Positions 50,162-54,110 of a DNA stretch of 64,000 bases are shown piece by piece. Within the stretch, counting starts at the first letter, position 1. The number at the start of each line of letters is the position of its first letter. The translations under genes and the position numbers were made by a program. The DNA is from an uncultured Ruminococcus sp. (GTDB lineage: Bacteria; Bacillota; Clostridia; Oscillospirales; Acutalibacteraceae). The stretch covers positions 83,706 to 147,705 of the forward strand of contig CACYIC010000002.1 of the NCBI GenBank assembly GCA_902774325.1, read 5' to 3'. A model generated the notes under the pieces. That model did not search any database. It was not told the origin of the DNA and was given only the letters and a program-made list of their open reading frames with translations.

Positions 50162-50470
50162 TCAGATATCGGTATCGATCATGCTGCGCAGCTTTTGGGC
50201 AAAGCCCCTGTCCTCTATCGAAACAACTCCGCACAGCTTGCCGAGCGCCAGGCTCAGCTCGTTTTTGCTGCGGTTGATCTCCAGCGCTTTGACGTTCGCC
50301 TTTGATGCGGCTTCAAGCACAGGCTTCAGGCTTGAGCGCGAGAAATCATTCGCGTATATGATAAGTCTTGACTTGCCCTCGCGCAGCGATTTTTCGCAGG
50401 CTTCGGCTCCGATAATGAGCTTACGCGCGCGCCGGCACAAGCCGAGAAAAGACAATAAGCTGTCGTTCAT
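50162..50470 (-). CDS. ylxQ: L7Ae/L30e-family RNA-binding protein (YlxQ)
   Basis: A 102-residue member of the L7Ae/L30e/S12e superfamily: LLSFLGLCRRARKLIIGAE, the NDFSR stretch, and SLALGKLCGVVSIEDRGFA. YlxQ proteins are thought to bind structured RNA and are always encoded between ylxR and infB. It starts two bases after the ylxR stop. Confidence 0.92.
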   Translation of the reverse strand: MNDSLLSFLGLCRRARKLIIGAEACEKSLREGKSRLIIYANDFSRSSLKPVLEAASKANVKALEINRSKNELSLALGKLCGVVSIEDRGFAQKLRSMIDTDI

Positions 50471-52134: not shown

Positions 52135-52614
52135 TTAATCAAAATCATCCAGCTTGATCCACGCGGCTTCCTTTTTGTTGAAGGTGATCTCGTTTTCGCC
52201 CGCGTGGTCGGCGACAGTTACCTCGCCGCCGCTGTATGCCCTGAGCACTCCGTCAAACTCTCTGCCGATCCCCTCTATCGGGCGCAGCATCTTGACCATT
52301 ACGTCCGCGCCGATAAACTGCTCGAAGTGTTCGTCGTTCACAAGCTCGCGCTCAACGCCCGGCGAACAGACCTCAAGGCAGTATGAGCTTTCGATCGGAT
52401 CGAGCTCGTCGAGCGGATCGTTGATCGCGCGCGAGACCGCCTCGCAGTCGTCGATCGAAACCCCGCCGTCCTTGTCAATAAAAATGCGCAGATACCAGTC
52501 CGCGCCCTCTTTCAGATAGCGCACGTCCCAGAGCCTAAGCCCAAGTCCGGTAACGATAGGCTCGCACAGCTTACGAACCCTTGAAACCGTGACGCCGCCT
52601 TTGCTTTTTGCCAT
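52135..52614 (-). CDS. rimP: Ribosome maturation factor RimP
   Basis: A 159-residue RimP with LGLRLWDVRYLKEG, LRIFIDKDGGVSIDDCEAVS and the signature YCLEVCSPGVERELV; a C-terminal Sm-like domain follows. RimP helps 30S assembly. The start at 52614 has GGGAGGTG seven bases upstream; the longer frame is ignored. It opens the rimP-nusA-ylxR-ylxQ-infB-rbfA-nrnA-truB operon, with a strong promoter at 52690-52718. Confidence 0.96.
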   Translation of the reverse strand: MAKSKGGVTVSRVRKLCEPIVTGLGLRLWDVRYLKEGADWYLRIFIDKDGGVSIDDCEAVSRAINDPLDELDPIESSYCLEVCSPGVERELVNDEHFEQFIGADVMVKMLRPIEGIGREFDGVLRAYSGGEVTVADHAGENEITFNKKEAAWIKLDDFD

Positions 52615-52689
52615 AACGCACCTCCCTGTCAAACACAAAGGAGCGGGTTGACTGCCCACTCCTTAGTTTCAACGTATTCATCATCTAGA

Positions 52690-52718
52690 ATTATATCACC
52701 AACCGAAAAAAATTTCAA
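52690..52718 (-). promoter_or_regulatory. Promoter of the rimP-nusA-infB operon
   Basis: TTGAAA, 17 bases, TATAAT on the minus strand, a near-consensus promoter about 75 bases before rimP. Confidence 0.85.
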
Positions 52719-52789
52719 GCCTTTTTTTCAGATTTCAAGCCGTTTTCCGCACTTTGTCAAAAAAAAATAAAAAAACTTTTAAAAAACAT

Positions 52790-52818
52790 TTGAATTTTTC
52801 AAATAAGTATGTTATAAT
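52790..52818 (+). promoter_or_regulatory. tRNA-Thr promoter
   Basis: TTGAAT, 17 bases, TATAAT, 26 bases before the tRNA. Confidence 0.8.
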
Positions 52819-52844
52819 ACTTAATCGTTGGGACAAATCAATAT

Positions 52845-52906
<62 letters not shown>

Positions 52907-52920
<14 letters not shown>

Positions 52921-52994
52921 TAATGACAGGGTATCCAAACGGATACCCTGTCATTATTTTACCACAGCAAAAGGCTGATAACCGGATTTGAAGG
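52907..52994 (+). repeat. 88-bp direct repeat carrying tRNA tail and terminator (copy 1)
   Basis: It begins in the tRNA acceptor stem (GGTTATCAGCTCCA), continues through the terminator, and ends in GCTGATAACCGGATTTGAA at 52974-52992, a 19-base inverted copy of the tRNA 3' part (52898-52916). It is perfectly repeated 216 bases downstream. Confidence 0.95.
52921..52959 (+). terminator. tRNA-Thr terminator
   Basis: TAATGACAGGGTATCC and GGATACCCTGTCATTA form a perfect 16-bp stem with loop AAAC, followed by TTTT. An identical copy lies at 53137-53175. Confidence 0.95.
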
Positions 52995-53122
52995 CGAGCG
53001 TGCCCGCCGCAGGCGGGTAAAAACGTCACGGTGTGACGTTTTTAGCGAGAGAGACGAACGCGCGGCAGAGCTATGCACACGCCGCAGCAAGCGAGCCGGA
53101 ACGATTCGGAAAAACCGTAACA

Positions 53123-53210
53123 GGTTATCAGCTCCATAATGACAGGGTATCCAAACGGATACCCTGTCATTATTTTACCACAGCAAAAGGCTGATAACCG
53201 GATTTGAAGG
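53123..53210 (+). repeat. 88-bp direct repeat carrying tRNA tail and terminator (copy 2)
   Basis: Identical to copy 1 but without the 5' part of a tRNA, so it is a duplicated tail rather than a second tRNA. The 128 bases between the copies contain other hairpins (around 53020-53042, AACGTCAC/GTGACGTT) but no gene. The stretch 53211-53408 is GC-rich, with a repeated GACGAGTACG.CCGCCGCCTG motif at 53212 and 53327, and no supported gene. Confidence 0.95.
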
Positions 53211-53408
53211 TGACGAGTACGTCCGCCGCCTGTGGCGGATGAAGGGAGTACGAGGAAGCGCAGAAACAGGGAGTTCGAGGAAGCGGCTTCAGCCGCGACG
53301 CTGAACGACCATGTTTCAAACGGAGACGAGTACGACCGCCGCCTGCGGGCGCATTTTGGACATCATCGCGGGGACGGGAAATATCCCGCCGGGCATGAAG
53401 CCGACTTA

Positions 53409-54110
53409 TCAAATCAGCGACTGGTCAAATTCGTAGAGGGCTTCGTTGATTTGGAAGCGGTTGTAGATACCGCGGCTGATAAAGAATTCTATGATAATAT
53501 CGAACTTGCTGCTGTGAGAGAGGGCGTAGCCGGCTTTTTCGAGCAGCTCGCGTGTTTCTTTCGTATCAAGCTCGAGAGCTACCGCGAAGGCTACGGCGGT
53601 CTGCTTGCTCGGTTTGTACAGCGGATTTGAGCGGATCTTTGAGAACAGCTTTCGGTCGACCGCCGCCTTTTTGTAGCACTGAGAATCGCTCATGCCGCGT
53701 TCGTCGATCTTGCGCAGGAGCATTTCGGAGAAGCCCTCGTCCAGCTCCCTGAGCGCGTCGGAGAGGCTTTTCGGAGCGGATCCCACAGCTTTTTCGCGCA
53801 TGCCGTTGGCAGGTGCGGCTGCCGCGCGGAAGTCCGCGGCAAAGTCCTCGTCGGGCTCCGGCATGGCGGCGGGCATTGCTTCGGGGACGCTTTTGGACTC
53901 GGGATACTCCGGCGCGGATTTGCTTTTTGCCCGAAAAGAGGGCATAGGCGCCGACCGCCTTTCGGCAAGCGGAGCTTGAGTCGGGACGGCTCCGAAGGAG
54001 CGCGTGGGGAACGGCTCTGTCGGGCGGTAGTTCTCCGCGATATATTGATTAAGTGTGAGCAGCAGCGCTGAATCGAGTCTTTCGCGCTTGGGCTTTTTTC
54101 GTGAAAACAT
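53409..54110 (-). CDS. Conserved-looking protein of unknown function with helical C-terminal domain
   Basis: A 233-residue protein in two parts. Residues 1-130 start [20 protein letters not shown] and are rich in Pro, Ala and Ser, probably disordered. Residues about 135-233 form a compact all-helical domain: [53 protein letters not shown], and [20 protein letters not shown]. This pattern resembles a helix-turn-helix of the Cro/C1 type extended by further helices (inference). It is divergent from the VWA gene, and its promoter sits beside a perfect palindrome. A regulatory partnership with the VWA protein is plausible. Confidence 0.75.

Follow-up and report, generated by a model that had tools for sequence, protein, structure and literature searches.

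The islands and prophages mobilized by tyrosine integrases occupy the 3′ ends of tRNA and tmRNA genes, where the tail of the gene comes to be present twice, further elements accrete in tandem and the tRNA is kept intact, with one island type using one or a few tRNA targets. Other repeats of bacterial genomes, such as the REP/BIME, ERIC and MITE-type sequences, are short, non-coding, hairpin-forming and present in many copies, their helper being unknown or encoded elsewhere. The casposase of A. boonei is reported to act at the 3′ end of tRNA-Pro, to need the motif TCAAATC 9–15 bp upstream and to generate 14–15-bp duplications (PMC6614799). Finally, template switching is reported to homogenize the arms of inverted repeats (PMC8604942, PMC7202029).

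The window, i.e., the whole 64,000-nt stretch of a contig from an uncultured Ruminococcus sp. analyzed here, contains behind its tRNA-Thr(GGT) gene an array which, as judged from the sequence, consists of two units of an apparently undescribed repeat family (Table 1). Like tRNA- and tmRNA-integrating islands, the family is found at tRNA/tmRNA 3′ ends with the tail duplicated on both sides in an attL/attR-like manner, but its units carry a non-coding core of approximately 130 nt and a tailored inverted copy of the T-arm and occur at some 20 tRNA kinds and tmRNA, and no integrase was found among the ORFs flanking the Thr-GGT array. The units share with casposons the location at the tRNA 3′ end and a T-loop motif upstream; unlike casposons, they are non-coding and display no casposon-type terminal inverted repeats that we could see. 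The direct repeat comprises 14 nt (nt 63–76) in the genus, close to the casposase duplication, but starts at about nt 55–59 in other families, and the terminator may be duplicated as well. Casposases represent the nearest known logic, but with regard to the enzyme the units do not qualify as casposons. Short length, the lack of coding capacity, hairpin formation and high copy number are features shared with the REP/BIME, ERIC and MITE-type repeats, from which the units differ in being tied to tRNA/tmRNA 3′ ends and in having a segment re-tailored to the local tRNA; unlike the REP elements of the Y1/RAYT system, they do not need a Y1 transposase, which is absent from 6 of 12 unit-rich genomes. 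As in the structured RNAs of Rfam, covarying helices are found in intergenic DNA, but none of the units searched reaches the gathering score of any Rfam family.

Table 1. Features of the two-unit array behind tRNA-Thr(GGT). Window coordinate 52844+n corresponds to position n of the tRNA, such that 52907 is nt 63 and 52920 is A76.
Feature	Window position	Strand	Basis
tRNA-Thr, anticodon GGT, CCA encoded	52845..52920	+	ARAGORN; Rfam RF00005, 75.8 bits
tRNA-Thr nt 54-72 (T-loop plus the 3′ strands of both T-stem and acceptor), found again in inverted form	52898..52916	+	19/19
tRNA-Thr nt 63-76, first of the two 14-nt direct copies	52907..52920	+	direct repeat
Intrinsic terminator of tRNA-Thr, perfect 17-bp stem and T-rich tail	52920..52960	+	inverted pair
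First inverted copy of tRNA-Thr nt 72-54, ending exactly at T54	52974..52992	+	19/19
Structured core of the first unit, 133 bp, hairpin-rich, right end ...GTAACA	52990..53122	+	covariance model R1
Apical core hairpin (TAAAAACGTCAC/GTGACGTTTTTA), the one that covaries across the family	53018..53044	+	inverted pair; covariation in relatives
Second copy of tRNA-Thr nt 63-76	53123..53136	+	direct repeat
Second copy of the terminator, perfect 17-bp stem	53136..53176	+	inverted pair
Second inverted copy of tRNA-Thr nt 72-54	53190..53208	+	19/19, exact
Second unit, beginning of a core variant in which the apical domain is longer (GGTGACGAGTACG...)	53209..53349	+	repeats; type-B query

The first-pass annotation had noticed that bases 52907–52994 recur exactly at 53123–53210 and that each copy contains the tRNA tail with CCA, a perfect terminator and a 19-nt inverted copy of the tRNA. 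Repeat search confirmed the recurrence and extended it to 91 bp with 90/91 identity (52907–52997 versus 53123–53213), and all of these components were verified in both units. Absent from that reading was the central part of the element, the conserved structured core lying between the duplicates. In the first unit, the core matched the covariance model of the family (R1) with 77.6 bits, complete over model positions 1–118, this unit being among the 40 sequences used to build the model, whereas the type-B query matched the core of the second unit (G000:C2:136914-137054, G000 being the genome from which the window derives) at 94% over 138 nt. No third copy of the tRNA-Thr tail was found by repeat search in 52500–53700, and thus the second unit is cut off or decayed. 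A Pfam scan of the seven ORFs flanking the array identified RimP, NusA, YlxR, an L7Ae-like protein and LytR-CpsA-Psr, leaving two ORFs without a match, and no recombinase or integrase among the seven. The 233-aa ORF behind the array (53409–54110, minus strand) has no Pfam match.

Within its own genome, the 91-bp sequence is present in full only in these two copies. The search for the duplicate at other tRNA genes was accordingly negative for the exact sequence and positive for the design, each time built with the tRNA's own sequence. The design was identified behind Thr-CGT, Arg-TCT, Gly-GCC, Leu-TAA, Leu-CAA, Leu-CAG and Ser-GGA, in the order terminator, inverted copy of the T-arm of that tRNA and one of two shared sequences; the terminator is missing from the Arg-TCT unit, and the inverted copies of the Gly and Ser units contain gaps or mismatches. 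Where the contig continues, the tail is also present as a direct copy, namely at Thr-GGT, Thr-CGT, Gly and Ser. The tmRNA gene also has a unit, and all inspected core matches of this genome lie behind a tRNA, a tmRNA or a tRNA 3′ fragment. The cores at Thr-CGT and Arg-TCT are identical over the 63 nt that are readable. A complement of the tRNA's own nt 54–65, with at most 1/12 mismatches and located 15–135 nt downstream, was found for 6 of 25 tRNAs, whereas 500 shuffles gave 0.69 on average and never more than 4; tRNA-Thr(GGT), which was filed under another locus and stands outside this set, has its complement with 0 mismatches and represents a seventh case. The design at the tRNAs of this genome is beyond chance.

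Contigs C18, C23, C52 and C53 of the same genome end shortly behind a tRNA gene, as does locus L042; such ends of draft contigs may be as expected if the repeats confuse assembly. Assembly error as the source of the duplicate itself was rejected, because units are present in genomes assembled as a single contig (L210 of G090 and L223 of G172) and tandem copies have diverged rather than being identical.

The tRNA-linked pattern is also present in relatives, with the 113-nt core query matching 133 of the 150 genomes of the genus, including 64 of the 75 near-complete ones; the 17 genomes without a match include G007, which holds units missed by BLAST, and hence these misses are not proof of absence. 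Searches with R1 of 94 sources, chosen for holding core matches, yielded 120 matches, 115 of them distinct, of which 73 are located at most 330 nt behind a tRNA or tmRNA predicted by ARAGORN, 10 are in tandem, 7 lie at contig edges and 25 are none of these. The genes upstream of the 73 matches comprise 22 tRNA kinds and tmRNA (4 matches), as counted by the nearest upstream gene, so that, in operons, a few matches may instead pertain to the following tRNA. Among the remaining 25, L112, L118, L196, L197, L214, L098 and L129 follow a 3′ fragment of a tRNA to which the arm matches, some others are found behind a tail-like stretch only, and some behind nothing recognizable. In L112, L118, L197, L214 and L129, where several of the fragments start at approximately the anticodon loop, the unit accompanies the tRNA 3′ half; integrative elements using that site would leave fragments of this kind. 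The genus motif was further found in 23 stretches of named MAG records, assigned to uncultured Ruminococcus, Ruminococcaceae, Clostridiales or Clostridia.

Units of the genus share a common anatomy, consisting of tRNA nt 63–76, the terminator, the inverted arm (nt 54 to approximately 66–72) and the core, followed by nt 63–76 again. In an alignment of 43 units from many species, the inverted arm ends at T54 and is mostly followed by GGCGA[G/C]CGT, a variable hairpin or cargo, the sequence AAAACAGTCC-NNN-GGACTGTTTTTAG[C/G]GAGAGCG or a compensated version thereof, a second hairpin region (..CACGCCGCAACAAGCGAGGCAG..), an A-rich stretch, with the right end of the core often being ACA or ATA, and tRNA nt 63–76. 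Of the 81 loci having an inverted arm with at most 2 mismatches, 54 contain a direct copy of the tail, the start of which is nt 63 in 38 units and lies within nt 61–65 in 53. Core lengths are mostly approximately 118 or 132 nt, with 39/54 units falling into the ranges of 115–119 or 130–134 nt. Downstream of the last tail, L111 and L115 contain a further shared stretch, comprising a terminator (ATCCTGTC...) and then TTTGTATTATTCATT..TTTTAAGTCTTCA; the two loci are from two species, and the tRNA gene that precedes the stretch is a different one in each.

Tailoring of the arm to the upstream tRNA was assessed for 66 distinct units anchored on the core motif alone, to avoid circularity. The arm matched the tRNA at nt 57 in 66/66 units (shuffled mean 37), at nt 59 in 63/66 (24.5), at nt 60 in 66/66 (53) and at nt 63 in 64/66 (38). 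The counts were 56, 58, 52, 47 and 43 of 66 at nt 64–68 (shuffled 24, 34, 26, 19 and 20) and 31–38 of 66 at nt 69–71 (shuffled 20), with nt 72 and nt 74–76 at chance; the match in these core-anchored units decays outward from the T-loop. At the inner border, nt 54 was matched in 58/58 and nt 53 in 0/58 aligned genus units, which had been preselected by arm match. In several species, the acceptor part is unmatched and identical (GCGGTT) in the units at Thr-GGT and Thr-CGT, whereas their T-arm parts differ, each fitting its own tRNA. This pattern suggests that the T-arm part changes when a unit changes tRNA, the acceptor part being carried along. A gap in the arm is common to the Gly-TCC and Gly-GCC units.

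The core bears signs of conserved structure. In 28 short-type sequences (21 distinct), 8 of the 14 proposed pairs change on both sides, in 19 cells, which was reached in 0 of 500 shuffles, and the signal was lost when the partner was slid; in the lower helix, no more than 6/21 form the outermost pair (columns 5/47). The lower helix, in which GA and AG stand opposite each other between paired steps, looks kink-turn-like, and is longer in several units from outside the genus. An L7Ae-family protein (Pfam PF01248) is encoded at 50162–50470 of the window, between the YlxR and infB-like ORFs. Although relatives bind kink-turns, the proximity of the gene to such a helix is probably a coincidence. 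No Rfam 15 family reached its gathering score on the unit in the window and 17 loci searched with a permissive E-value; overlaps with the units were sub-threshold, e.g., ylbH with 26 of 50 bits in L276, and the one other family above its cut-off near a unit, Gut-1 (RF01706) in L285, is located downstream of that unit. The open-licence literature and Rfam yielded no description of the repeat family, which does not prove its absence in print.

Alleles with and without units position the insertion. At Thr-GGT, there are two units in G031 and none in G033, and the sequence right behind the CCA in G033 aligns with that following the last tail in G031. The empty Leu-GAG site of the window's own genome compared to two units in G032, and the empty site of G013 (15 nt readable) compared to one unit in G092, agree with this observation. 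These comparisons place the units between the CCA and the host terminator. The terminator of the unit resembles that of the host in G031 but differs from it in G032 and G092, and the terminator stems at Thr-GGT of G000, G006 and G026 are wholly different in otherwise similar flanks. Terminators thus appear to turn over fast, and they may be either duplicated on insertion or carried in with the unit. The reading of the direct repeat as a target duplication of fixed length (14 bp) is weakened by the nt 55–59 start in other families and by the terminator likeness in G031.

To what extent the cores follow the tRNA kind was evaluated on 37 units from 27 genomes, taken from the 54 units with both ends after exclusion of units exceeding 135 nt and of those belonging to named records. 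Median identity was 0.73–0.75 for cores at different tRNAs of the same genome (11 pairs), 0.66 for the same tRNA in different genomes (53 pairs) and 0.67 for different tRNAs in different genomes (547 pairs). In this small sample, cores mostly do not seem to sort by tRNA kind; however, the highest single identity (0.86) was between units at the same tRNA kind in two genomes, which argues for some inheritance by locus. Polar growth of the arrays was not supported. Of 19 arrays scored with R1, 15 had the higher score in the unit nearest to the tRNA (15:3, p=0.0075), but tRNA-proximal units had served to build R1, which biases this count; when sequences from the same genome were left out of the models, the nearest unit scored higher in 12, lower in 6 and equally in 1 of the 19 (p=0.24). 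Both counts omit L182, a duplicate of L101, and L166, in which the first unit is cut by the contig edge and scores lower than the second.

Beyond the genus, 44 of 245 genomes from across the order had a match at E≤0.01, many of which correspond to the apical hairpin alone; such matches (model positions 16–46) were excluded from family membership. Among 19 out-of-genus loci, ten are clear tRNA-linked units (L267, L269, L271, L273, L276, L277, L281, L285, L286 and L291), with a terminator or hairpin, a matching inverted arm, the core and the tail behind a tRNA. L268, L270, L275 and L278 are unit-like and adjoin a stretch resembling a tRNA, a tRNA on the reverse strand or an isolated tail, and L272, L280, L284, L287 and L289 were rejected as units. 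A second set, with 8 of 10 loci displayed, added one clear unit (L293), two armless loci and five representing another repeat; in L282 and L295, both behind tRNA-Tyr, the core and tail are present and the inverted arm is not recognizable. The eleven clear units, including L293, belong to families f1 (in another genus), f3, f8, f17, f20, f21 and f25, and the direct copy outside the genus starts at about nt 55–59. In the predicted single-sequence folds of some of these units, e.g., L276 and L281, pairing of the inverted arm with the tail closes the structure around several hairpins. L279, L283, L288, L292 and L294 represent another interspersed repeat, located away from tRNAs and carrying the same ACAGTCC..GGACTGT hairpin, with several copies each in G180, G244, G297 and G281.

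Candidate helper enzymes were compared between 12 unit-rich and 11 BLAST-zero genomes; the latter include G007, which does hold units, and, the zero set being flawed in this way, only absences in unit-rich genomes carry weight. Cas1, RVT_1, Y1_Tnp and Transposase_20 were all without a match in G000, which is unit-rich and 91% complete. Cas1 had no match in 7 of the 12 unit-rich genomes (G000, G008, G110, G006, G095, G124 and G148, all drafts) and was present in the other 5. RVT_1 and Y1_Tnp were each found in 10 of the 23 genomes, the former being absent from the unit-rich G000, G008, G110, G006, G124, G172 and G090, the last two of which are single-contig assemblies, and the latter from G000, G102, G008, G110, G172 and G148 (6/12). 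IS110-type transposases occurred in 7/12 unit-rich versus 1/11 BLAST-zero genomes (Fisher 0.027, with the unit-holding G007 counted in the zero set) and were absent from the unit-rich G000 and the single-contig G172, a weak association with the units. Since each is missing from several unit-rich genomes, none of Cas1, reverse transcriptase, Y1 and IS110-type enzymes appears to be needed.

In 2 of 10 IS110-type loci examined, L306 (G006:C146) and L312 (G007:C32), the element interrupts a tail unit at the base of its apical hairpin, indicating that the units can serve as IS110/IS1111 targets; these two elements near units were accordingly set aside as autonomous versions. L140, in which the inverted arm is followed by a promoter-like stretch, was considered as an autonomous version and dismissed, the gene beyond not being a transposase as judged by eye. 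The unit was not found in viral contigs (2 exact-pattern scans), in plasmids or in phages, for which the best 20 of 71 matches cover little beyond the tRNA part of the query.

We favor, with a probability of roughly 0.4, the explanation that the repeat is a small non-coding mobile or recombining element residing between the CCA end of a tRNA or tmRNA and the host terminator. The core would be copied to a site behind a further tRNA gene, a step aided by its T-arm segment being complementary to the T-loop common to all tRNAs. The tRNA would be kept intact, its tail and perhaps its terminator being duplicated or re-supplied. The T-arm segment would then be matched to the new tRNA, most likely by template-switch homogenization of the two inverted arms, for which the invariant bases of the T-loop would serve as the anchor, and the match might be kept by selection. 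Such anchoring fits the outward decay of the match from the T-loop. This explanation builds on the observed anatomy, tailoring, covariation, filled and empty alleles, arrays and cores mostly unsorted by tRNA kind; from there we infer the role of T-arm pairing in directing insertion, the way in which the arm is re-tailored and the supplier of the enzyme.

A serious rival, somewhat unlikely in our estimate, is a resident functional RNA under selection, which does not move and in which tailoring reflects coevolution. In one version, RNA reading through the terminator may pair its 5′ inverted arm with the 3′ tRNA tail to form a tRNA-like CCA end, which tRNA-processing enzymes could mature; in the other, the anti-T-arm may pair with the upstream tRNA for quality control or termination. 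Covarying helices, near-perfect tailoring at the variable positions of nt 54–63 and the presence of the unit in most genomes of the genus speak for such an RNA, as does the predicted closure of the fold by arm and tail in some out-of-genus units (e.g., L276 and L281). Yet the best-matched segment, nt 54–62, is absent from the downstream tail in the genus, the closing acceptor half is often unmatched (31–38/66 at nt 69–71, chance level at nt 72), the terminator usually precedes the unit, only part of the tRNAs of G000 have one and empty alleles exist.

Alternatively, the units could be an enzyme-free by-product of the palindromic nature of terminators and T-arms, with fold-back replication, template switching and unequal recombination amplifying tail, inverted tail and hairpin, and the core spreading only by rare gene conversion between tRNA loci. 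The process is established (PMC7202029, PMC8604942), and because it makes inverted arms identical, it accounts for the tailored arm of the units; the alternating inverted arrangement, the tandem units, the decay of the match with distance from the T-loop, the wholly different Thr-GGT terminator stems of G000, G006 and G026 in similar flanks and the four enzyme kinds without a match in G000 all point in the same direction. Template switching does not, however, explain the conserved structured core, its spread and the tRNA specificity: compensated core structure and two preferred lengths are not expected from random palindrome turnover, and the preferred ACA/ATA right end and the link to tRNA/tmRNA 3′ ends are left unaccounted for. 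We regard this alternative as unlikely.

A bolder form of mobility is an RNA- or single-stranded DNA-guided selfish element, with the complement of the universal T-arm as its guide. Such an element would enter any tRNA or tmRNA gene harmlessly and have its guide overwritten by each target, being re-programmed with every move. We consider this doubtful.

The first-pass annotation had offered two readings of the duplication, a small integration remnant or a self-propagating tRNA-tail repeat. The latter fits better and is supported in part, by the many tRNA kinds and tmRNA across the genus and related families, the filled and empty alleles, the arrays and the cores mostly unsorted by tRNA kind. 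The former fits poorly, with no flanking recombinase, units at approximately 20 tRNA kinds and an arm tailored to each. A remnant of a tRNA-integrating island, with a tyrosine integrase and attL/attR sites, would account for direct repeats of the tRNA 3′ end flanking the core, as at integrase sites; but no recombinase is encoded by the seven neighboring ORFs, the core of approximately 130 nt is devoid of cargo genes, one and the same insert could reach so many tRNA kinds only with an attP tail fitting each of them, and the tailored inverted arm is left unexplained. The recurrence of units at many tRNA kinds largely refutes this possibility, which we consider very improbable. Least credible of all is a casposon-like, Cas1-family insertion, in which an enzyme reading the T-loop would produce 14-bp duplications at tRNA 3′ ends: the 14-nt direct repeat (nt 63–76) in the genus and the reported precedent of the A. 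boonei casposase at the tRNA-Pro 3′ end (PMC6614799) speak for it, but Cas1 is without a match in 7/12 unit-rich genomes, all seven of them drafts, no casposon-type terminal inverted repeats were seen and the duplication length differs outside the genus.

Collectively, the units apparently form an undescribed family that is present genus-wide, has relatives in other families of the order and is tied to tRNA genes. To our knowledge, no other bacterial repeat has one arm matching the adjacent tRNA while the rest is mostly unsorted by tRNA kind. Repeats built from tRNA tails may break draft assemblies at tRNA genes and mislead predictions of attachment sites. If the family is resident, it would constitute an unrecognized tRNA-linked RNA; if it is mobile, it would represent a way to colonize essential genes harmlessly, with recognition re-tailored at each target.
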